From the NCBI RefSeq assembly GCF_900112175.1, contig NZ_FOYT01000006.1, positions 124,001 through 188,000 on the forward strand: 64,000 bases of DNA, given 5' to 3'. How positions within the stretch are numbered: position 1 is the stretch's first letter; the number at the start of each line of letters is the position of its first letter. The position numbers and the translations under genes are program-made. Shown in pieces: positions 1,081 to 55,931 of this stretch. Source of the stretch: Halogeometricum rufum (GTDB taxonomy: Archaea; Halobacteriota; Halobacteria; Halobacteriales; Haloferacaceae). The notes beneath the pieces were generated by a model, which saw only the letters and a program-made list of their open reading frames with translations, did not search any database and was not told the DNA's origin.

Positions 1081-1090
1081 CATAACCAAG
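1081..1090 (+). promoter_or_regulatory. Promoter box CATAACCAAG
   Basis: An AT-rich CATAAC box in GC-rich surroundings, of the same type as boxes found before many glycan genes here. It ends 27 nt before the ATG of a 25-codon upstream ORF and 101 nt before the DUF354 gene. That spacing would make the transcript start at the small ORF. Confidence 0.5.
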
Positions 1091-1116
1091 TGCGTTCTCT
1101 GTGCTGTGTGCGATAG

Positions 1117-1194
1117 ATGACGAGCGCACTCGATAGCCCCCGCACGACCGGTGGCCCTCGCACGACCCTCCCGGCCGAAGGTGGTGAGCTGTGA
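1117..1194 (+). CDS. Upstream ORF (25 aa), stop overlapping the next start
   Basis: ATG at 1117 opens a 25-codon frame beginning MTSALDSP and ending EGGEL. Its TGA (1192-1194) overlaps the GTG start of the DUF354 gene (GTGA). The ATG lies 27 nt after a CATAAC box, the usual haloarchaeal spacing from TATA box to leaderless start. The peptide is not acidic and resembles no family I know, so any role is probably translational coupling rather than peptide function. This is an inference from geometry; six similar cases occur in the window. Confidence 0.35.
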   Translation: MTSALDSPRTTGGPRTTLPAEGGEL

Positions 1195-2303
1195 GCCGCG
1201 CAACGTTCGCCGCCAGCGAAGACGAACCGTCCGAGACGACGCGCAGCGTCGCCCAAACCGTCGAGGCGTGGGTCGACCTCGCGAGCCCTTCCCATCCGTT
1301 CTTCTTCAAGGCGCTGACAGACTCGTTCTCCAACGTCGAGCCGACCGTGACCGTTCGCGAGAAGACCGAGACGGTACCGTTGGCCCGACAGGTCGGCTAC
1401 GACTTTCGGACGGTCGGAAAAGACTACGAGAACCCCCACTTACGCAAGGTAGGGATTCCGCTACGAACCGCTCAACTGGCACTCGAAGCGCCGGACGCCG
1501 ACGTTGCGCTCTCCTCGCGAAACGCGATGTGCATCCTCGCGGCGAAGGTTCGCGGCATCCCCTCCATCCACTTCACCGATAACGACATCTGCGCCTACGT
1601 GGACGGGTTGGCCGCCGAGGAACTGTACCACCGGCTGGAAGCGCAGGCGACGCACAACGTCGTCCCCACGGCGTTCCGAACCGAGGTGCTGACCGACCGG
1701 GGTGCCGACCCCGACAGCATCCACACGTACGACGGCTACAAGGAGGACGTCTACGTCGCCGCCTTCGAGCCCGACCCGTCGTTCCTCGACACGATTCCGT
1801 TCGAGAGCCAGGATTTCATCGTCGTCCGTCCGGAAGCACTCTCCGCGACGTACGTGGACGCCGAGGGGTCTCTCGTCCCCGACATCCTCGCCGGCGCCGT
1901 CGAACGCGGCGTGAACGTCGTCTACCTCCCCCGCGAGGGGACGGACCGCGCGTTCGCCGACGGACTGCCGCCCGAACGGGTGTACGTCCCGGACGAACCC
2001 CTCTCGGGGCTTGAACTCGCGTGGCACGCGCGCTGTGTGCTGACGGGGTCCGGAACGATGGCGCGCGAAGCGTCGCGCATGCAGACACCCGCCGTGTCGT
2101 TCTTCCCGAGCACGCTCATCTCGGTGGACCGCGCGCTCATCGAGGAGGGCGAGATATTCCACTCCCGCAACGCCGAGGACGTCCTCGACTACGTGGAGTC
2201 CATCACCGACCATGACGCGCAACCGGACCTGACGCGCGCGCGACGCGTCCGGCGCGAAGTCGCCGACCTGACCGCCGACCTGATGAACGAGACGCTCGAC
2301 TGA
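1191..2303 (+). CDS. DUF354 family protein (glycosyltransferase-like)
   Basis: A 370-residue soluble protein resembling DUF354, an archaeal and bacterial family with a GT-B / UDP-GlcNAc 2-epimerase-like double Rossmann fold. Visible features are an N-terminal segment with SPSHPFFFKALTDSF (about residue 30), IHFTDNDICAYVDGL near 125, a middle linker with TYDGYKEDVY near 180, and a C-terminal nucleotide-sugar-like half with GSGTMAREASRMQTP near 285. The last motif matches the G-T-M-A-E-A signature of this family. The GTG start at 1191 is preceded by AGGTGGTGAG and overlaps a small upstream ORF. It lies among glycan genes, so a sugar-transfer role is likely, but the substrate is unknown. Confidence 0.8.
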   Translation: MSRATFAASEDEPSETTRSVAQTVEAWVDLASPSHPFFFKALTDSFSNVEPTVTVREKTETVPLARQVGYDFRTVGKDYENPHLRKVGIPLRTAQLALEAPDADVALSSRNAMCILAAKVRGIPSIHFTDNDICAYVDGLAAEELYHRLEAQATHNVVPTAFRTEVLTDRGADPDSIHTYDGYKEDVYVAAFEPDPSFLDTIPFESQDFIVVRPEALSATYVDAEGSLVPDILAGAVERGVNVVYLPREGTDRAFADGLPPERVYVPDEPLSGLELAWHARCVLTGSGTMAREASRMQTPAVSFFPSTLISVDRALIEEGEIFHSRNAEDVLDYVESITDHDAQPDLTRARRVRREVADLTADLMNETLD

Positions 2304-9222: not shown

Positions 9223-9232
9223 AATAACCAAA
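9223..9232 (+). promoter_or_regulatory. Promoter box AATAACCAAA
   Basis: AATAACCAAA lies 28 nt before the ATG of a 23-codon upstream ORF, which ends 4 nt before the membrane protein gene. The gap 8901-9335 therefore holds two divergent promoters and the small ORF; nothing else is evident in it. Confidence 0.45.
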
Positions 9233-9259: not shown

Positions 9260-9331
9260 ATGTTCGTTCTCGGAATCGTCTGCAGCGGACTCGAAGACGA
9301 AGCGGCGCGTCGGCCGCGGGCGGGGGGCTGA
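9260..9331 (+). CDS. Upstream ORF (23 aa) just before membrane protein gene
   Basis: ATG 9260 opens 23 codons (begins MFVLGIVCSG, ends RAGG). The TGA at 9329-9331 lies 4 nt before the GTG start at 9336. It follows an AATAAC box by 28 nt. It belongs to the set of small coupled upstream ORFs described in the findings. No recognisable peptide function. Confidence 0.3.
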   Translation: MFVLGIVCSGLEDEAARRPRAGG

Positions 9332-9335
9332 CAGC

Positions 9336-11222
9336 GTGTCGCCTCCCCTGAGCCGACGTTCCGAGCCGACGTCGCCGCGGTGGACGAGAGCGCTCCTCCT
9401 CGTCGGCTTTCTCGGCCTCGCCGTCGCCGTCCTCGCGGCGCGTTCGAAGCCGGCGACCGGCTACGAGGTGTCGATATACGCGGCGACGCCGCCGGCCTTC
9501 TGGGTGGGCGTCGTCGGGGCGGCGGCCGTCGGTGCCGTCGCGACCCTGTTCGGCCGCAACCTCGTCCGCGCCGCCGGCGTCGGTCTGGCGGGTCTCGCCA
9601 CGGTGGCGTTCCTCTCGCTTCCCCTCGTCCGCGGCTACTACTACTACGGGTCGGGCGACGCGCTGACGCATCTCGGCTGGGCGAAGCGGATGCTCAATCC
9701 GGAGTTCGGGTTCTTCGACATCATCTACCCCGGGGGGCACTCGCTGGCCCTGTTCCTCTCGCAGTCGATGGGCGTCCCCGTCAGGTGGGGGATGATGTAC
9801 GCGATGCTCACCGTGTCGGTGCTGGCGTTGCTGTTCGTCCCCCTCGCCGTCTGGGTGGTCACCCGCGACTCCAGAGCCGTCGTCATCGCGGCGTTCACGG
9901 CCATGCTGATGCTACCCATCAACAACATCAGCACGCACTCGCACTTCCACAGTTACACGCTGACGACGCTGTACTTCCCGTTCGTCCTCTACTTGCTGTT
10001 CAAGCACCTCACCCGGTCGGCGGAGGACACCGCGCTGCCGAGTTGGGCGTCGGCGGCCAGCCTCGTCCTGCCCGTCGCGTTGATGGCGAACGTGTTCTAC
10101 CACCCGCAGGTGGCGGTGAACGTGCTCATCTTCATGGGCACCGTCCTCGCCGTCGGACTGGTGTGGCGCCGTCGCGTCCGGGTGTCGCATCCGACGGCGA
10201 CCGACGGCGGGCAACGTCACCGGCTGATAGTCGGACAGGTCGTCTTTCTCGCCGTCCTGCTGGCGGTGTGGGCGACCCAGTACCAGCAGACGTTCACGCT
10301 CTTGAACAACGTCTACCTGTCCGCGCAGGCGTTCTTGACCACCGGGACGGGCGCGGGACAGGTCGCCGCCCAACGGGGCGGGTCGGCTCAGTCCATCGGC
10401 GTGAGCATCGTCGAACTGTTCGTCAAACTGTTCGCGGTTAACGCCATCTACGTCGTCATCGCGACGGCGTTCATGGCCGCGCTGGTGTTCGGCATGGTGA
10501 GCGGACGGTCCGATAGCGGCGTGGCGGTGGCCTACATCGGCTTCTCCGCGTTCACGCTCGGCCCGTTCTTCGCGGTGCAGTTCATCGGCGACGTGTCGGG
10601 CTACTTCTTCCGGCACTTCGGGTTCGCGATGGTGCTGGTCGGCATCGTCGGCGCCATCGCCCTCTATCACCTCTCGGACGCCATCGGCGACGCCCTCGAC
10701 GGGCGCGAACGGGCCGTCGTCTCGGTGCTCACCGTCGCGGTGCTGTGTCTGTCGTTGGCGGCGTTCTTCCCCTCGCCGTACATGTACAACCCCTCGCCGC
10801 AGAGCCCCGAACAGCAGTTCGTCGGCTACGACACGGTCTTCGAACACCGCGCCGAGGGGGCCGCCGTGGCCGGTATCCGCGGCGGGCCGGGGCGCTTCAG
10901 CGACGCGCTGAACGCCGAGTTCGACAACCGGCTGAAGTGGACGCTGTCGGGGTCGGAGTTCAACAGCACGCAGAACGTGACGCGGTTCAGGGAGTACTCC
11001 TACTCCGAGCAGCCGTTCTACTATCTCACCGTCTCCGAGAAGGACAGGGCGCGGGAGTTGGTCGCGTACGACTCGCTCCGCTACGAGGAGGGCGACTTCG
11101 AGCGAATCGCGAACGGGACGCACCCGCGCATCTCGCACATCCAGACGAACGGCGAGTTCGACACCTACTACGTCGACCAGCGCGGCTACCCACTGGACCC
11201 GCCGGAGCAGACGGACGATTAA
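9336..11222 (+). CDS. Large polytopic membrane protein, possible GT-C-like glycosyltransferase
   Basis: A 628-residue protein with about 12-13 hydrophobic helices spread over residues 15-470 and a C-terminal soluble region of about 150 residues, predicted outside the membrane. The conserved-looking loop YYYYGSGDALTHLGWAKRML (about residues 102-121) after helix 3 or 4 contains an acidic GDALTHL motif, reminiscent of catalytic loops of GT-C enzymes that use lipid-phosphate sugars. I cannot assign a GT family, and similar haloarchaeal proteins are annotated only as membrane proteins. GTG 9336 is chosen by its position after the small upstream ORF. The neighbouring GT4 gene suggests a role in surface glycan assembly. 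Confidence 0.7.
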   Translation: MSPPLSRRSEPTSPRWTRALLLVGFLGLAVAVLAARSKPATGYEVSIYAATPPAFWVGVVGAAAVGAVATLFGRNLVRAAGVGLAGLATVAFLSLPLVRGYYYYGSGDALTHLGWAKRMLNPEFGFFDIIYPGGHSLALFLSQSMGVPVRWGMMYAMLTVSVLALLFVPLAVWVVTRDSRAVVIAAFTAMLMLPINNISTHSHFHSYTLTTLYFPFVLYLLFKHLTRSAEDTALPSWASAASLVLPVALMANVFYHPQVAVNVLIFMGTVLAVGLVWRRRVRVSHPTATDGGQRHRLIVGQVVFLAVLLAVWATQYQQTFTLLNNVYLSAQAFLTTGTGAGQVAAQRGGSAQSIGVSIVELFVKLFAVNAIYVVIATAFMAALVFGMVSGRSDSGVAVAYIGFSAFTLGPFFAVQFIGDVSGYFFRHFGFAMVLVGIVGAIALYHLSDAIGDALDGRERAVVSVLTVAVLCLSLAAFFPSPYMYNPSPQSPEQQFVGYDTVFEHRAEGAAVAGIRGGPGRFSDALNAEFDNRLKWTLSGSEFNSTQNVTRFREYSYSEQPFYYLTVSEKDRARELVAYDSLRYEEGDFERIANGTHPRISHIQTNGEFDTYYVDQRGYPLDPPEQTDD

Positions 11223-21798: not shown

Positions 21799-21808
21799 CA
21801 TAACGATA
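21799..21808 (+). promoter_or_regulatory. Promoter box CATAACGATA
   Basis: CATAACGATA ends 30 nt before the ATG of an 11-codon ORF that overlaps the flippase start, and 62 nt before the flippase GTG itself. Confidence 0.45.
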
Positions 21809-21837: not shown

Positions 21838-21873
21838 ATGGAATCTCGCGTGCGTACGGGGGGTCGGCAGTGA
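21838..21873 (+). CDS. Upstream ORF (11 aa) overlapping flippase start
   Basis: ATG GAA TCT opens an 11-codon frame (MESRVRTGGRQ). Its TGA at 21871-21873 overlaps the flippase GTG (GTGA). It lies 30 nt after a CATAAC box. Same arrangement as at 1117, 46273, 51810 and 54727. Confidence 0.3.
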   Translation: MESRVRTGGRQ

Positions 21874-23384
21874 GCCGGCTCCGCGCTCTCCTCAATCGTC
21901 TCGTCCCAACCGGTGGCACCGCAGAACGAGTCGTCAAGAGCGCCATCTGGGCGATGGGACAGAACGCCTTCGGTCGCATCCTCCAGTTGGCGATGCTCGT
22001 CGTCCTCGCGCGCCTCATCGGCCCGACGCAGATCGGGCTGGTCGGAGTCGCGCTCCTCGCGCTGAGCGGCATCCAGAAGTTCACGAACGTCGGCCTCGAC
22101 GCCGCCCTCGTGCAGGACGAGGAGACGAACGTGGACGAACACCTCAACACCGTGTGGGTGCTCGAAATCGCCCGCGGGGCGCTCATCTCCGCCGTGTTGC
22201 TCCTCGCGGCCCCGCTCATCGCGCAGGTGCTCGGCGACGGCAACGTCCAGAGCACGACGACGCTGATTCAGGTCATCGCGCTCTCGCCGCTCCTCCTCGG
22301 CTTCAAGAACCCCGGGATGGTCTACTTCCAGAAGAACCTCGACTTCCACAAGCAGTTCGTCTACCGGGTCAGCGGGGACGTGGTGCAGGTGGTCGTCGCC
22401 ATCGCGTGGGCGCTCGTCAGTCCGACGGCGATGGCGCTGGTCGCGGGGTACGTCGCCGCCGACCTGCTCCGTCTCGTCCTGTCGTACCTCCTGCACGAGT
22501 TCCGTCCGAACCTGAGTTTCAGCCGCGACTCGGCGGGGCAACTCATCAACTACGGCAAGTGGATAACCGGGTCGTCCATCCTCTACTTCCTCTACAGCGA
22601 GGGTGACGACGCGTTCGTCGGCGCGTTCATCGGGGCCGCGCCGCTGGCGTTCTACCAGTACGCCTACCGCTTCTCGAACGCGCCCGCGACGGAACTGACG
22701 AGCGTCATCTCCAGCGTGATGTTCCCGGCGTTCTCGAAGCTACAGGACGACGCCGAGCAGATGCGGAGCACGTTCAAGAAGACGCTCCGCGTGAACGCGT
22801 TCATCTCAGCGCCCGTCGCCTTCGGCATCGCCGTCGTCGCCCCCGACTTCGTGATAGTTGCCCTCGGCGAGCAGTGGACGGACATGATCGTCCCGATGCA
22901 GATACTCGCCCTCTACGGCTTCCTCCGCGCCCTCGGGCAGACGTTCGGCCCCATCTGGAAGGCGATGGGTCGCCCCGACCTGCTGGCGAAACTCGGCTTC
23001 CTCCGCGTCGTCCTCATGGCGGTGACGCTCTATCCCGTGGCGGTGACGCTCGGATACGGCATCACCGGCGCCGCCGCCGTCGTCACGGTCATCTACGTCT
23101 TCCCGATGATGCCCATCGACATCTACCTCATCACGAAGATGCTCGACGTGCCCCCGTTGGAGACGATACGCGAGATAGCGTTCCCCACCTCCGCGAGCGC
23201 CGTCATGGCGGCCGTCGTCTGGTACGTGGACTCGCTGATCGAACTCCCGGCCATCGCGGAGTTGGTCATCGGCATCCTCGTCGGCGCAGTCACCTACTTC
23301 GCCGTCGTGGCCGTCCTCGAACGGCAGTTCCGCTGGGGCATCGGTCGGAACGTCAAGAAAATCGTCGCCAGCGCGCGTCGCTGA
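21870..23384 (+). CDS. Oligosaccharide flippase family protein (Wzx-like)
   Basis: A 504-residue integral membrane protein with about 12-14 hydrophobic helices. The N-terminal half has the polysaccharide-biosynthesis signature: SAIWAMGQNAFGRILQLAML (about residues 29-48), LARLIGPTQIGLVGVALLAL, then FKNPGMVYFQKNLDFHKQFVYRVSGDVVQ (split by a loop). These are typical of MATE-superfamily lipid-linked oligosaccharide flippases. It would move a lipid-linked repeat unit across the cytoplasmic membrane. GTG 21870 overlaps a tiny upstream ORF. It is divergent from the GT2 at 20682 and precedes a sulfatase. Confidence 0.9.
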   Translation: MSRLRALLNRLVPTGGTAERVVKSAIWAMGQNAFGRILQLAMLVVLARLIGPTQIGLVGVALLALSGIQKFTNVGLDAALVQDEETNVDEHLNTVWVLEIARGALISAVLLLAAPLIAQVLGDGNVQSTTTLIQVIALSPLLLGFKNPGMVYFQKNLDFHKQFVYRVSGDVVQVVVAIAWALVSPTAMALVAGYVAADLLRLVLSYLLHEFRPNLSFSRDSAGQLINYGKWITGSSILYFLYSEGDDAFVGAFIGAAPLAFYQYAYRFSNAPATELTSVISSVMFPAFSKLQDDAEQMRSTFKKTLRVNAFISAPVAFGIAVVAPDFVIVALGEQWTDMIVPMQILALYGFLRALGQTFGPIWKAMGRPDLLAKLGFLRVVLMAVTLYPVAVTLGYGITGAAAVVTVIYVFPMMPIDIYLITKMLDVPPLETIREIAFPTSASAVMAAVVWYVDSLIELPAIAELVIGILVGAVTYFAVVAVLERQFRWGIGRNVKKIVASARR

Positions 23385-37211: not shown

Positions 37212-37268
37212 ATGAACGTACAGGATAGTTCTCTCAGAGCGTCCGAGCGCGCGGCCCCGGCGTCATGA
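37212..37268 (+). CDS. Upstream ORF (18 aa) overlapping the ThDP enzyme start
   Basis: ATG AAC GTA opens 18 codons (MNVQDSSLRASERAAPAS). The TGA at 37266-37268 overlaps the next ATG (ATGA). Unlike the glycan cases, no clear AT-rich box lies 26 nt before it; the promoter may be the AT-richer stretch near 37060-37130. Confidence 0.3.
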   Translation: MNVQDSSLRASERAAPAS

Positions 37269-38959
37269 ACACGAGCGAACGACTCGTCGAGACACTGGAG
37301 AACCTCGGCGTCGAACGCGTCTTCGGCTACCCCGGCGGCCGGGTCATCGAACTGTTCGACCGCCTGCCGGAGTCGTCGGTGGACCTGGTCCGCCCGCGCG
37401 ACGAACGCGAGGCGAGCGTCATGGCCGAGATGCACGGCCGCCTCACGGGCGACCCCGGCGTCCTCGTCGGGCAGGGGCCGTGGATAGGCAGCCTCGGTGT
37501 CATCGGCCAGATGGAAGCGCGACTCGGGTCGTCACCGATGGTCGTCGTCACCGAAGCCTCCGAGCGGGGCGACTACTCCACCGTCGCGCCGTACCAGCAG
37601 TCCCGCGGCGACTACGGCGGCGTCGAACTGCCGAAGATTCTCGACGCGGTGACGAAGGAACACTGGTGTCCGCGCACGCCGCCGGAGACGGTTCGGAGCC
37701 TCCAGTTGGCGTTCAAGCACGCCGTCGCCGGACGACCCGGGCCGACGGCCGTCGTCCTCGACGGGAACGCCGTGACCGAGGAGATGCCGGACGACCCGAT
37801 TCCGCCCGTCTGGGACGACGCGGCGCAGACGCGGACGTGGTCGGCGGCGCCGACGCCGCGGGACGTTGCCGCCGCCGTCGAAGCCCTAGAGTCCGCCGAC
37901 CGACCCGTCGTCGTCGCGGGCAACGGCGTCCACGCCGCGGGCGCGTACGACGAACTCCGGACCGTCGCGGAGCGATACGACGCTATCGTCGTCACCTCCT
38001 ACCTCGGCAAGTCGACGTTCCCCGAGACGCACCGACTGGCGGGCGGCGTCGTCGGGTCGTTCGGCCACGAGGGGGCGAACCGGGTCGTCAGCGAGGCGGA
38101 CGCGCTCCTCGTCGTCGGCTGTCGGCTGAATCCGATGGACACGAACTGGGGCGCGCCGGACTTCGTCCGACCCGCGGAGCAGACGATTGTCCACGCCGAC
38201 GTGGACGCGCGCAACGCCGGGTGGGTGTACCCCGCTGACGTGGGCCTGATAGGCGACGCGGCGGAGTCGCTCCGCGAACTCGCCGAGGCCGGCGCGGCGT
38301 CGAACGACTGGGCCGAGTCGCGGGCGGCGACGGCGCGGGAGTCGTTCGACGCGCCCGAGTGCGAGTCGGCGGCGACGCCGATGCTCCCGCAACGCGCCGT
38401 CAAGGAGATAGAACGCGTGGTGGACGCGGACACCGTCGTGACGGCGGACTCCGGCAACAACCGCTTCTGGCTCCTGAACTACCTGCAGACGCCCGCCGTC
38501 CGGACGTACTTCGGAAGCGGCGGCGTCGGCGGGATGGGCTGGGCGAACCCCGCGGCGGTGTCGGCGGCGCTGGCGACGGAGAAGGACGTGCTGGCCGTCG
38601 CCGGCGACGGCGGGTTCGCGATGACGATGACGAGCGTGGAGACGGCGGTAGAGCAGGGCGTCGCACCGACGTTCGTCGTCCTCAACGACACCAGCCTCGG
38701 GATGGTGCGGCAGATGCAACGCGGGCCGGACGACATCGCGGGCGTCGAGTTCCACGACACCGACTTCGCCCGCGTCGCCGAGGCGTTCGGCGCGGAAGGC
38801 GTCCGCGTCGAGTCGCCGGACGAACTGGGCGACGCCCTCCGCGACGGGAAGGCGAGTGCGACGCCGACGGTGGTGGACGCGCGAATCGACCGGGACGAGG
38901 ACATGGCCGAGACGCTCCAGTCGTCGTTCTACGCGTCTGTCGGCGGTCTGCACGAGTAG
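37265..38959 (+). CDS. Thiamine diphosphate-dependent enzyme, acetolactate synthase-like
   Basis: A 564-residue ThDP enzyme with the three-domain layout: Pyr domain with YPGGRVIELFDRL and the activating Glu in PRDEREASVMAEMHGRLTG (about residues 42-60), central domain with VVVAGNGVHAAGAY (about 217-230), and PP domain with the GDGG...N motif (AVAGDGGFAMTMTSVETA near 444, then LNDTSLGM). The family includes acetolactate synthases, benzoylformate decarboxylases and sulfopyruvate-type enzymes; the reaction cannot be fixed by sequence alone. It is a lone gene after a 277-nt gap. The start overlaps a small upstream ORF. Confidence 0.85.
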   Translation: MNTSERLVETLENLGVERVFGYPGGRVIELFDRLPESSVDLVRPRDEREASVMAEMHGRLTGDPGVLVGQGPWIGSLGVIGQMEARLGSSPMVVVTEASERGDYSTVAPYQQSRGDYGGVELPKILDAVTKEHWCPRTPPETVRSLQLAFKHAVAGRPGPTAVVLDGNAVTEEMPDDPIPPVWDDAAQTRTWSAAPTPRDVAAAVEALESADRPVVVAGNGVHAAGAYDELRTVAERYDAIVVTSYLGKSTFPETHRLAGGVVGSFGHEGANRVVSEADALLVVGCRLNPMDTNWGAPDFVRPAEQTIVHADVDARNAGWVYPADVGLIGDAAESLRELAEAGAASNDWAESRAATARESFDAPECESAATPMLPQRAVKEIERVVDADTVVTADSGNNRFWLLNYLQTPAVRTYFGSGGVGGMGWANPAAVSAALATEKDVLAVAGDGGFAMTMTSVETAVEQGVAPTFVVLNDTSLGMVRQMQRGPDDIAGVEFHDTDFARVAEAFGAEGVRVESPDELGDALRDGKASATPTVVDARIDRDEDMAETLQSSFYASVGGLHE

Positions 38960-45943: not shown

Positions 45944-45953
45944 CATAACCAAA
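45944..45953 (+). promoter_or_regulatory. Promoter box CATAACCAAA
   Basis: CATAACCAAA ends 29 nt before the ATG of the 41-aa zinc-finger gene, the leaderless spacing. This supports that very small gene. Confidence 0.5.
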
Positions 45954-45981
45954 CGGCTCGGACGCCTATCTCGGGTGTATC

Positions 45982-46107
45982 ATGAACGCTACGAACGAGA
46001 GCCGGCCGCGGTGTACGGAGTGCGGCGCCCCCCTGACCCGCGCCGTGACCGGGACGATGGCCCTCTCCGCCACGACGCTGTGTCCCGACTGTGACCGAAG
46101 CGGGTGA
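45982..46107 (+). CDS. Micro-protein with two CxxC knuckles (41 aa)
   Basis: ATG 45982 encodes 41 residues: MNATNESRPRCTECGAPLTR at the start and TTLCPDCDRSG at the end. Two CxxC pairs (CTEC and CPDC) about 20 residues apart form a plausible zinc site. Haloarchaea encode many such double-CxxC micro-proteins, some with roles in adaptation, but no specific function can be given here. The CATAAC box 29 nt upstream argues for real expression. It is too short for usual gene finders. Confidence 0.6.
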   Translation: MNATNESRPRCTECGAPLTRAVTGTMALSATTLCPDCDRSG

Positions 46108-46239: not shown

Positions 46240-46249
46240 GATAACTATC
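46240..46249 (+). promoter_or_regulatory. Promoter box GATAACTATC
   Basis: GATAACTATC ends 24 nt before the ATG of the 15-codon upstream ORF at 46273, again the leaderless spacing. Confidence 0.4.
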
Positions 46250-46272: not shown

Positions 46273-46320
46273 ATGCATCTGACCGACCGCTCCGCGTTCT
46301 CGACGAGGTGGCAGCGATGA
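46273..46320 (+). CDS. Upstream ORF (15 aa) overlapping next start
   Basis: ATG CAT CTG opens 15 codons (MHLTDRSAFSTRWQR). The TGA at 46318-46320 overlaps the ATG at 46317. A GATAAC box lies 24 nt upstream. Same arrangement as in front of several glycan genes. Confidence 0.3.
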   Translation: MHLTDRSAFSTRWQR

Positions 46321-46559
46321 GTTCGCCCGCAGAGCAGTCTGGGGCGGGGGCGAGTGGAACCGCCAGCGTGGAGCCGACCGGAACCGACGGCGCGGACCCG
46401 ACCGACTGGTACGACCGCGAAGTGCCGGGCATCGTCGCCGGACTCGAAGCGTCCGGTCGACTCGGCACGCAGACGAGCGACGCCGCGTGGGAACTCCTCG
46501 CGCGGGGTCGCGCCCGCGCGGCACTGGAACTCGTTCTCGGCGCGGTAGACGCCGCCTAA
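46317..46559 (+). CDS. Hypothetical small protein (80 aa)
   Basis: An 80-residue acidic, Ala/Gly-rich protein. Residues 1-30 look disordered (Ser/Gly/Thr/Asp-rich) and residues about 32-80 (DWYDREVPGIVAGLEASGRL, then AAWELLARGRARAALELVLG) are predicted helical. No family recognised. GAGGTG precedes the start, whose ATG overlaps the stop of a 15-codon ORF. It lies 60 nt before the nucleotidyltransferase gene. Confidence 0.5.
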   Translation: MSSPAEQSGAGASGTASVEPTGTDGADPTDWYDREVPGIVAGLEASGRLGTQTSDAAWELLARGRARAALELVLGAVDAA

Positions 46560-50572: not shown

Positions 50573-51745
50573 TTACGCTGCCACCTCTGACTGCTCGCGG
50601 ACGACTCCGTCCACGACCACGCCGGCACCGACGGTGGCCTCGGCGCCGACGCTGCTACCTGCCGTAAGCGTCGCGTTCGCACCGACCGTGGCGCGGTCGG
50701 CGACGATACTTCCGATTCTGCGGTCCGTGTAGAGGCGGCCGTCGACGACGACGTCCGCCCGTCCGCCCGGCGAGGCGACGCAGTCGCCGATGCGGGCGCC
50801 GGACCCGACGACGGAGTCGCGCAGGAGGGCGTTCGCCCCCACGTGCGCGTCCGTCGACACGATGGACCGCTCGACGACCGAGTTGGCCCCGACGTGGACG
50901 TTGTCCTGCAGACACGTCCCCGACCGGATGACCGCGCCGGGGCCCACGTCGCAGTCCTTGCCGATGACGACCGGCCCCTCGATGATGGCCGACTCGTGGA
51001 CGCGCGCGGAGTCCGCGACGTACACGTCCGACCCGTAGTGGCGGCCCAGGAGCGTCTCGGAGACCGAGAGCAACTGCCAGGGGGTCGAGGGGTCGAGCCA
51101 CCCGCCGTTGACGAGGATGGAGGTGACGGGGCCGTCGAGATGCTCGATGGCGTCCGTCAGCCGAATCTCGCCTTGCCACGGGTCGGTCTGGTCGAGGGCG
51201 TCGAACACCGAGTCGTCGAACGCGTAGACGCCGGCGTTCACGACGTAGCCCTCTCGCTCGACCGGATGCTCGTCGATGTCGGCGATGAGGCCGCGGTCGG
51301 TGATGACGACGCCGTACTCCTCGGGGGTGTCCGAGTGTGCGACCGCCACGGTGGCGGCGCAGTCGGTCGACTCGTACCGTTCCAGCGTCGACTCGACGAT
51401 TTCGGTGTCGATGATGTTGTCTCCGTTGACGACGAGGAAGTCGCCGTCCACCATCCCGGACGCCTGCATCAGGGCGTGACCGCTCCCGAGACGGGAGGGC
51501 TGCTGGACGAACTCGACGTCCAGGTCCTGATACGCCGCGGTGAGGTGCGTCTGGATGCGGTCGCCGCGATAGCCGACCACGACGACGACGCGTTCGATGC
51601 CACTGTCTACGAGCGCGTCGAGGACGTAGTCGACGACCGGTCGGTTCGCGACGGGAAGCATCGGCTTCGGGAGATACTTCGTGAGCGGACGGAGCCGCCG
51701 ACCCTCACCTGCGGCGAGGACGACCGCCTCGCGGACGTCGCTCAT
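50573..51745 (-). CDS. Sugar-1-phosphate nucleotidyltransferase with hexapeptide domain (GlmU-like)
   Basis: A 390-residue protein. The nucleotidyltransferase motif is VVLAAGEGRRLRPLTKYLPK (about residues 8-27), GSGHALMQASG (about 84) and VVNGDNIID (about 101), then NAGVYAF (about 150) and residues about 240-385 with hexapeptide repeats (AIIEGPVVIGKDCDVGPGAV, then ATVGAGVVVDGVV). It resembles the gene at 46620, so two GlmU-like enzymes occur in the window; being just upstream of glmS, this one is the stronger candidate for UDP-GlcNAc synthesis. Start ATG 51745 overlaps the stop of a 22-codon upstream ORF. Confidence 0.88.
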   Translation of the reverse strand: MSDVREAVVLAAGEGRRLRPLTKYLPKPMLPVANRPVVDYVLDALVDSGIERVVVVVGYRGDRIQTHLTAAYQDLDVEFVQQPSRLGSGHALMQASGMVDGDFLVVNGDNIIDTEIVESTLERYESTDCAATVAVAHSDTPEEYGVVITDRGLIADIDEHPVEREGYVVNAGVYAFDDSVFDALDQTDPWQGEIRLTDAIEHLDGPVTSILVNGGWLDPSTPWQLLSVSETLLGRHYGSDVYVADSARVHESAIIEGPVVIGKDCDVGPGAVIRSGTCLQDNVHVGANSVVERSIVSTDAHVGANALLRDSVVGSGARIGDCVASPGGRADVVVDGRLYTDRRIGSIVADRATVGANATLTAGSSVGAEATVGAGVVVDGVVREQSEVAA

Positions 51746-51810
51746 CCGGGTCCCTCCCGGCACGGACGAACTGACGCCGTGCCGTTCGGCCGGGCGGAGT
51801 GTAGTGGCAT
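51742..51810 (-). CDS. Upstream ORF (22 aa) overlapping nucleotidyltransferase start
   Basis: On the minus strand ATG (51810) opens 22 codons (begins MPLHSARPNG, ends REGPG). Its TGA overlaps the next gene's ATG (ATGA). The ATG lies 25 nt after a TATAACAATG box, so transcription would start at it. This is one of the clearest examples of the coupled small ORFs. Confidence 0.4.
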   Translation of the reverse strand: MPLHSARPNGTASVRPCREGPG

Positions 51811-51834: not shown

Positions 51835-51844
51835 CATTGTTATA
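51835..51844 (-). promoter_or_regulatory. Promoter box TATAACAATG (minus strand)
   Basis: Minus-strand TATAACAATG lies 25 nt before the small upstream ORF and 90 nt before the nucleotidyltransferase gene. The remainder of the 372-nt gap 51746-52117 is without gene signals. Confidence 0.5.
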
Positions 51845-54377: not shown

Positions 54378-54803
54378 GTCCGCCGGCGACGCGTCGGCCC
54401 GGTGACCACCCCTACGGGCGGAGTCGAAGACCGAATAGGTAGCCTCGCGCTCGGACGCATCCCCTTCTCCCCCGCTTCTCCGCTCTCAGCGACGCGCGCG
54501 CCGTGACTCATCTCGCGGGCGCGTCGGACACTCGTCTGACGGCGAGGGCTCGGCGCCGTCGAACCCGGGCGGAGACGGACGGAAGTTACTGCCTTCGGCC
54601 CGAATCGGCGGACGCGGCTCTGAGCGTCGGAATCCCGCGCTGTCCCCCGATTTTTCGCCTTCTCGTCGCGCACAGGTTCCCTATAACAAAGCGTGTACGG
54701 GACCCCGGTACGGTAGACAACGATCTATGACCACTCACAGGAACGCGGTCGAACGAACCGAGGACGGCGTCCGAGACGAACGGCGTCAGGTCCCCCGACA
54801 CCG
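54378..54803. other. Gap of 426 nt before wecB
   Basis: Contains a TATAACAAAG box at 54682-54691 and a 26-codon upstream ORF (54727-54807). A CGATTTTTCGCC T-run near 54650 may end the PadR transcript. The rest shows no gene. Confidence 0.45.
54682..54691 (+). promoter_or_regulatory. Promoter box TATAACAAAG
   Basis: TATAACAAAG lies 36 nt before a 26-codon upstream ORF and 113 nt before wecB. Confidence 0.45.
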
Positions 54804-54807
54804 ATGA
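54727..54807 (+). CDS. Upstream ORF (26 aa) overlapping wecB start
   Basis: ATG 54727 opens 26 codons (begins MTTHRNAVER, ends QVPRHR). The TGA at 54805-54807 overlaps the wecB ATG (ATGA). The distance to the TATAAC box is 36 nt, longer than the 24-30 nt seen elsewhere. The peptide is Arg-rich, so a coupling role is more likely than a protein function. Confidence 0.3.
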   Translation: MTTHRNAVERTEDGVRDERRQVPRHR

Positions 54808-55931
54808 CGGCCGACAGTGGCGGCGCGTCGCAGGTGGCAATCGTCCTCGGCACTCGACCAGAGATAATCAAGTTCGCACCCGTCATCAAGGCGTGCGACC
54901 GTCGAGGTGTCGACTGTCTCCTCGTTCACACCGGGCAACACTACTCGGAGGACCTCGACCAGGTGTTCTTCGACCAGTTGGAACTCCCGACGCCGGACTA
55001 CAACCTCGAAGTCGGCTCTCGTTCGCACGGCGAACAGACCGGACGGATGCTCGAGGGCATCGAGGACGTCCTCGACGAGCACGCTCCGGACGTCGTCTTG
55101 GTTCAGGGCGACACGAACTCGACGCTCGCCGGCGCACTCGCCGCCTCGAAGTCGAACGTCGACGTGGGCCACGTCGAGGCGGGCCTGCGAAGTTTCGACC
55201 GGGACATGCCCGAGGAGGTGAACCGCGTCGTGACGGACCACATCGCCGACTACCTGTTCCCGCCGACGGAGGAGACGAGGAGCCACCTCGAACGGGAGTC
55301 GGTCGCCGGCGAGATAGTGACCACCGGGAACACCATCGTGGACTCGCTGTACGAGTACCGTGACCTCGCCGCGGAGAAGAGCGACGTGCTGTCGGACCTC
55401 GGTCTGCAGGAAGACGACTTCTACCTCCTCACCGCCCACCGCGCGGAGAACGTCGACGACCGCGAGAGTTTCGCTCGACTCCTCGAAGGCGTCTCTCGCT
55501 TCGCGGCGCAGACCGGCCGCGAGGTGGTCTACCCCATCCACCCCCGCGCGCAGTCTCGCCTCGACGAGTTCGACCTGACGCTCCCCGAGGAGATTCGGAC
55601 GGTCGAACCGCTGGACTTCCTCGACTTCCTCCGACTGGAGTCGGCCGCCGCCCTCGCCTTCACCGACTCCGGCGGCGTTCAGGAGGAGACCTGTATCCTC
55701 GGAACGCCCTGCGTGACGCTCAGATACAGCACGGAACGGCCGGAGACCGCTTACGTGGGCGCGAACTGTCTGGCTGGACTCGACCCCGACGACGTCGTGG
55801 AGGCCGGGAGCACGATGCTCGGAAAGGACGCCGACTGGGACGTCCCCTTCGGGGACGGCCGCGCGGCGGAACGAATACTCGACACGCTCGCCGCCGGGGT
55901 CGAACCCGACGCGGCGGAGGTATCTCCATGA
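54804..55931 (+). CDS. wecB: Non-hydrolysing UDP-N-acetylglucosamine 2-epimerase
   Basis: A 375-residue GT-B-fold epimerase. VLGTRPEIIKFAPVIKACD (about residues 14-32), LLVHTGQHYSEDLDQVFFDQ (about 38-57) and VQGDTNSTLAGALAASK (about 93-109) are typical; VGHVEAGLRSFDRDMPEEVN (about 115-134) carries conserved His and Glu, and TDSGGVQEETCILGTPCVTLR (first 20 of it about 288-308) is the C-terminal UDP-binding motif. It interconverts UDP-GlcNAc and UDP-ManNAc. The stop overlaps the wecC ATG by 4 nt, so the two genes form an operon. Confidence 0.95.
   Translation: MTADSGGASQVAIVLGTRPEIIKFAPVIKACDRRGVDCLLVHTGQHYSEDLDQVFFDQLELPTPDYNLEVGSRSHGEQTGRMLEGIEDVLDEHAPDVVLVQGDTNSTLAGALAASKSNVDVGHVEAGLRSFDRDMPEEVNRVVTDHIADYLFPPTEETRSHLERESVAGEIVTTGNTIVDSLYEYRDLAAEKSDVLSDLGLQEDDFYLLTAHRAENVDDRESFARLLEGVSRFAAQTGREVVYPIHPRAQSRLDEFDLTLPEEIRTVEPLDFLDFLRLESAAALAFTDSGGVQEETCILGTPCVTLRYSTERPETAYVGANCLAGLDPDDVVEAGSTMLGKDADWDVPFGDGRAAERILDTLAAGVEPDAAEVSP

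Follow-up and report, generated by a model that had tools for sequence, protein, structure and literature searches.

Comparison of leader sequences suggests, with a probability of about 80%, that a near-leaderless micro-ORF serves as a surrogate first cistron, which would load ribosomes and hand them on to the following gene by termination-reinitiation. A TATA-like box (YATAACAAWG and variants) would start the transcript, placing the first AUG a few nucleotides from the predicted 5' end; this AUG would open an ORF of 11-60 codons, presumably translated, whose product would be irrelevant. Ribosomes would load on the micro-ORF through near-leaderless initiation, the usual route in haloarchaea, finish at a stop overlapping the next start or lying within a few nucleotides of it, and reinitiate there, often aided by an SD motif inside the micro-ORF end. 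The micro-ORF would replace a real upstream gene for starts of the internal-operon type (in other species these genes sit in operons), and the main gene would depend on it. Since the arrangement is kept across many genera while the peptide drifts, it most likely serves ribosome delivery.

The window, meaning the whole 64,000-nt stretch of DNA that was analysed, corresponds to positions 124001-188000 of a 245-kb contig and has a G+C content of 67%. Its relevant features, in window coordinates, are as follows.

1082-1086 (+): ATAAC promoter-like box of the DUF354 locus, conserved in G001, G002, G004 and G011
1117-1194 (+): DUF354 micro-ORF, 25 codons, its TGA inside GTGA, on the GTG at 1191
1191-2303 (+): DUF354 gene (PF04007), putatively coupled start
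9224-9228 (+): ATAAC box of the membrane protein locus
9260-9331 (+): membrane protein micro-ORF, 23 codons, stop 4 nt before the GTG at 9336
9336-11222 (+): large membrane protein, with a weak DUF6541 match under the curated cut-off
21800-21804 (+): ATAAC box of the flippase locus
21838-21873 (+): flippase micro-ORF, 11 codons, GTGA overlap on 21870
21870-23384 (+): polysaccharide flippase (PF13440)
37212-37268 (+): ThDP ORF, 18 codons, ATGA on 37265, no box; excluded from the set
46241-46245 (+): ATAAC box of the 80-aa protein locus, reading GTAAC in G001 and G003
46273-46320 (+): 80-aa protein micro-ORF, 15 codons, ATGA overlap on 46317
46317-46559 (+): 80-aa protein, no match in a family search
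51839-51843 (-): ATAAC box of the GlmU-like locus
51742-51810 (-): GlmU micro-ORF, 22 codons, ATGA overlap on 51745
50573-51745 (-): GlmU-like sugar-phosphate nucleotidyltransferase (PF00483)
54683-54687 (+): ATAAC box of the wecB locus
54727-54807 (+): wecB micro-ORF, 26 codons, ATGA overlap on 54804
54804-55931 (+): wecB, UDP-GlcNAc 2-epimerase (TIGR00236)

All seven small ORFs listed by the initial annotation were found in the sequence where it had placed them, and its length range of 11-26 codons held for the six boxed micro-ORFs, five of which end in ATGA or GTGA on the start of a glycan-cluster gene while the sixth stops 4 nt before it. The RTGA tetramer typical of mycobacterial coupled ORFs is thus present at these joins, with a 4-nt gap instead at one window locus. 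ATAAC boxes were likewise confirmed at the six loci, whereas the box-to-ATG spacing of 24-36 nt had to be corrected: the distance is 27-39 nt from the end of ATAAC and 32-44 nt from its first A, and the box lies 70-121 nt from the main-gene start. An eighth case stands just upstream of the window, with a box at G000:C6:123891 and a 21-codon micro-ORF joined by GTGA to a DUF1616 gene (start at about window position -4); in one congener its frame is shifted, giving an 8-nt overlap. An in-frame upstream GTG at 51763 was rejected as the true GlmU start, as it is absent in G011, whereas the ATG with the 4-nt overlap is kept everywhere.

Orthologous upstream regions were aligned, as the initial annotation had proposed, and the start codon and overlap proved to be kept. 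The box, the ATG and the stop/start overlap were all retained at the DUF354, flippase, GlmU and wecB loci in the congeners bearing these genes and in G011, which belongs to another genus. The DUF354 micro-ORF has 25-28 codons with a GTGA overlap in G001, G002, G004 and G011, and 61 codons with ATGA in G030; the flippase arrangement is identical in G001, G003 and G004, with 12 codons in G011. At the 80-aa locus, G001 and G003 carry a 15-codon micro-ORF with a GTGA overlap despite their GTAAC, and G004 has none. The membrane protein locus departs from the overlap, its stop lying 4-6 nt before the start: the 23 codons are kept in G001, G003 and G004 with a gap of 5-6 nt, and G011 has a GTG-started micro-ORF of 24 codons with a 4-nt overlap. 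Within the glycan window, 5/6 testable cases were conserved or nearly so. Indels inside the micro-ORFs were mostly whole codons, and the box-to-ATG spacer varied by 1 or 4 nt.

Further genomes were picked solely on protein similarity, which kept the leader sequences themselves out of the selection. For GlmU, the box, an ATG micro-ORF and the 4-nt overlap were found in 23/23 orthologs from five genera, including Haloferax, with micro-ORFs of 15-22 codons whose ATG nearly always lies 33 nt past the A of ATAAC. For wecB, 25 of the 30 sampled orthologs had an ATG micro-ORF overlapping the start, mostly by 4 nt and in some cases by 8 or 11 nt; the other five comprised three in operons behind longer ORFs, one with a GTG micro-ORF and one with a direct start 30-40 nt past the box, the operon and direct-start classes being assigned by reading the sequence. 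In the wecB leader of Halorussus limi, a search for an ATG micro-ORF revealed none. The joins thus show overlaps of 1 or 4 nt or very short gaps, as in haloarchaeal termination-reinitiation, besides some 8- and 11-nt overlaps; the 8-nt overlaps indicate that the kept feature is the stop on the start codon and not one fixed frame. Plasmid records yielded members in Haloferax gibbonsii, H. lucentense, H. alexandrinus, H. mediterranei and H. larsenii, and in Salinigranum marinum, Haloarcula marismortui and Haloarcula hispanica. Starts annotated by NCBI give the 4-nt overlap in Hfx mediterranei, Hfx gibbonsii, Hfx larsenii, Salinigranum and Hca marismortui, and a 1-nt overlap in Haloarcula hispanica; wherever a leader was read, the micro-ORF was missing from the gene-table annotation.

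The position of the box resembles that of a promoter element. YATAACAAWG was more frequent than its reversed control in several genera, and at 83 distinct sites from many genera, start ATGs of ORFs reaching 150 aa or more peaked at +30 to +39 past the box (21 sites), with about 0-4 such ATGs in each of the other 5-nt bins, save for the ATG within the box itself. Four long-gene starts in the window lie at +33/+34 from a box. Micro-ORF ATGs stand at +32 to +47 and direct starts chiefly at +30 to +39; given this box spacing of ordinary starts, the micro-ORF ATG sits where an ordinary start codon would. Judged by these positions, the box is promoter-like. A number of box sites in other genera, however, lack both a direct start and a micro-ORF at the expected position. 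A second promoter was sought inside the window micro-ORFs, and no A/T run longer than 3 nt was present. The usual TATA distance predicts a 5' leader of roughly 5-16 nt at these loci, and the micro-ORFs are therefore expected to be near-leaderless rather than strictly leaderless. Babski et al. (2016, PMC4983044) classed 72% of Haloferax volcanii transcripts as leaderless, meaning a leader of 0-5 nt.

Three side observations concern the box. In other genera, some contigs contain clusters of YATAACAAWG (e.g. G023:C68:37743-87257, G022:C12, G051:C9). A ATAACAAAG box at G000:C6:47728 (minus) precedes, at +33, a 37-codon ORF whose stop overlaps the start of a 405-aa gene by 8 nt. In the window at 45945-46107 (+), an ATAACC box precedes, at +37, an ORF of 41 aa that contains two CxxC pairs (MNATNESRPRCTECGAPLTRAVTGTMALSATTLCPDCDRSG) and has a close homologue ahead of the 80-aa gene in G004; unlike the micro-ORFs, this ORF likely encodes a real zinc-binding small protein.

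Could GC-rich DNA with few stops, combined with NTGA starts, produce such ORFs by chance? The frequency of these overlaps, a calculation that the initial annotation had recommended, was estimated on a background of 445 kb of the own genome with dinucleotide shuffles as the null. Coupled ATG micro-ORFs preceded 7/15 free-standing NTGA-start genes in the window compared with 2.7 expected, and the corresponding counts were 6 seen vs 3.6 expected in 200 kb of core chromosome, and 8 vs 3.2 and 0 vs 0.7 in other stretches. When a box was required together with the coupled micro-ORF, 6 matches were obtained on the 245-kb contig and 0 among 43 boxes in the 200-kb core; ATAAC permutations free of overlap with the box gave 0-2 matches. 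The count excess alone is modest and weak as proof, and overlap counts from one genome were dropped as such because the excess was too small. Shuffles thus account for 2.7 of the 7 window cases, and the ThDP case and another at G000:C6:127551 resemble random ORFs. Against chance, the arrangement is kept across genera while length and sequence differ, and because of this conservation it lies far beyond chance expectation. Frame alone gave a joint p of ~3e-6 that a random start at +28 to +46 reads into the overlap in 11 non-congeneric cases, which are only partly independent (those from G011 can still be aligned to the window, whereas those from Haloferax, Haloarcula and elsewhere vary in both length and sequence); these statistics argue for selection. 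On this comparative evidence chance is refuted for the six boxed loci, its probability as an explanation being close to nil.

Peptide constraint was assessed from pN/pS. The micro-ORF value was 1.04 for the own genus together with G011; the GlmU leaders of Haloferax (13) gave 0.80, and the wecB leaders of the Haloarcula family (9) gave 0.87. Main-gene values over the first 100 codons were 0.08-0.18 in the reliably aligned cases; a wecB main-gene value of 0.93 within the own genus was discarded because indels had misaligned the N-terminal codons. The peptides thus appear nearly unconstrained, and, as in mycobacteria, architecture is conserved more than peptide. The earlier statement that the peptides share no sequence was borne out, an unrelated peptide being found at every locus and in every genus. 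No conserved peptide or regulatory codon run of the attenuator or arrest-leader kind was detected within or between loci. Folding, which covered the Haloferax GlmU leaders, gave no RNA structure signal there (z -0.42), and Rfam had no match in the window; on these two results a riboswitch or other RNA element was rejected. Taken together, pN/pS and the lack of a structure signal and of an Rfam match disfavour any role as micropeptide, arrest peptide or amino-acid attenuator. That the micro-ORF makes a functional micropeptide, with the coupling incidental, would fit its steady length within genera (20 codons in 13/13 Haloferax GlmU leaders); it conflicts with a pN/pS of 0.8-1.04 and with unrelated peptides at each locus and genus, which make it highly improbable and largely refuted already.

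The same negative results weigh on a regulatory leader, in which modulated translation of the micro-ORF (through amino acid supply, start-codon selection or translation stress) would control the glycan genes. The architecture permits control, several loci of one cluster share the box and micro-ORF, and in Haloferax the mapped 5'-UTR of the glycan flippase gene agl15 contains an ORF of 15 aa (PMC4983044). Yet no peptide or codon run is conserved within or between loci, and neither a conserved RNA fold in the Haloferax GlmU leaders nor an Rfam match in the window was found, so that regulation of this kind seems unlikely. A related proposal, also unlikely, is that haloarchaeal surface-glycan clusters share a promoter box and surrogate first cistrons, with obligate dependence on the leader and joint tuning by leaderless-initiation capacity; if true, it would amount to regulon-wide translational control in archaea. 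Alternatively, the micro-ORF might keep the leader RNA covered by ribosomes and so stop termination on untranslated RNA, reinitiation being secondary. FttA-type polarity is cited for archaea (PMC12548453) and 70-121 nt separate the box from the main start, but such a role needs neither an exact overlap nor an SD motif, and untranslated stretches are reportedly stable in H. volcanii (PMC6728339); we consider it very unlikely.

The downstream starts carry features expected of reinitiation by ribosomes delivered from a surrogate first cistron. SD matches of at least 5 nt preceded the start in 54% of micro-ORF genes and 60% of operon genes with a 4-nt overlap, compared with 10% of isolated genes and 10% of shuffles; SD motifs within the upstream ORF were thus enriched over isolated starts (54% vs 10%), as in haloarchaeal termination-reinitiation, and were weak at wecB. 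This weakness counts against the surrogate-cistron reading, as do the gap at the membrane protein locus, the shifted DUF1616 frame in one congener, the wecB leader of Halorussus limi and the box sites with nothing at the expected position. Several box-less orthologs stand behind full genes with the identical 4-nt overlap. We take these genes to have starts of the coupled type; where such a gene heads its transcript, the micro-ORF would stand in for an upstream gene. Haloarchaeal SD motifs are reportedly ineffective for de novo initiation at 5'-UTRs and common at overlapping pairs, and in Haloferax volcanii 9/9 tested gene pairs, overlapping or short-gapped, were strictly coupled (PMC6728339).

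The set differed in scope from that first described. The ThDP locus had been counted as a seventh overlap: its ORF and overlap are present and lack a box, as stated, but it was rejected as a member, because a longer upstream frame ends ahead of this gene in the closest relatives. For the ThDP gene itself (37265-38959, +), this longer frame is seen in G002, G010 and G037 and is missing here. Conversely, a helicase gene at G000:C1:22137 (minus), which we take from our own reading of its sequence to be hel308-like, is preceded by a micro-ORF of 12-13 codons that overlaps it through GTGA and stands behind a TATA-like CCTTTTAG element, an arrangement kept in G002 and G004; it was the sole conserved non-glycan case found in the core-chromosome sample. 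The idea of a glycan-only box was dropped, since the box precedes other genes in other genera and the conserved micro-ORF of hel308 follows another TATA-like element. The arrangement is not strictly glycan-specific. The initial annotation had proposed that ribosomes are handed to glycan genes by stop-start coupling; the box-like start position, the conserved overlap, the unconserved peptide and the reinitiation-like starts support the handover, and the restriction to glycan genes falls with hel308.

The closest known counterpart is the coupled leaderless small ORF of mycobacteria (Shell et al. 2015, PMC4633059), which stands at the start of a leaderless transcript, much as is predicted for the present ORFs, and shares with them the RTGA join and an architecture that outlasts the peptide, its linkage being conserved more than its sequence. 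The present type differs in being archaeal, with a TATA-like box, in occurring in many genera of several families, in having an SD motif in the micro-ORF end, in its enrichment in surface-glycan clusters and in being known from sequence alone. Overlapping gene pairs of Haloferax volcanii that use termination-reinitiation (Huber et al. 2019, PMC6728339; 2023, PMC10666635) share the ATGA overlap, the intragenic SD and the organism class, whereas the upstream partner here is no gene but an unannotated ORF of 11-60 codons without a conserved product. Bacterial leader genes (Korolev et al. 2016, PMC4833913) are also short ORFs, proposed to deliver ribosomes and to raise translation by reinitiation, but they are spaced mainly 10-11 bp from the gene and predicted by frequency only, whereas the ORFs here overlap it and are conserved. 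The uORFs of Haloferax volcanii (Babski et al. 2016, PMC4983044), 15-31 aa long, occur in mapped long 5'-UTRs, one of them before agl15; overlap with the main start and conservation, found here, do not appear in the available part of that description. Ribosome-delivering short ORFs are a proposed mechanism in a review (PMC12548453), and leaderless bicistronic cassettes use such an arrangement in engineering (PMC10367133). Our literature search found no archaeal report of conserved coupled micro-ORFs; the Haloferax ribosome-profiling studies (Gelsinger 2020, Hadjeras 2023) lay outside this search and may show some.

These results provide comparative evidence that archaea may retain leader ORFs with meaningless peptides that feed ribosomes to operon-type starts, which would explain how a gene adapted to coupled translation can head a transcript of its own. 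Because cultured species of Haloferax and Haloarcula carry the same leaders, which their genome annotations overlook, the idea is directly testable. Long apparent 5'-UTRs of haloarchaea should accordingly be viewed with caution, as they may be translated.
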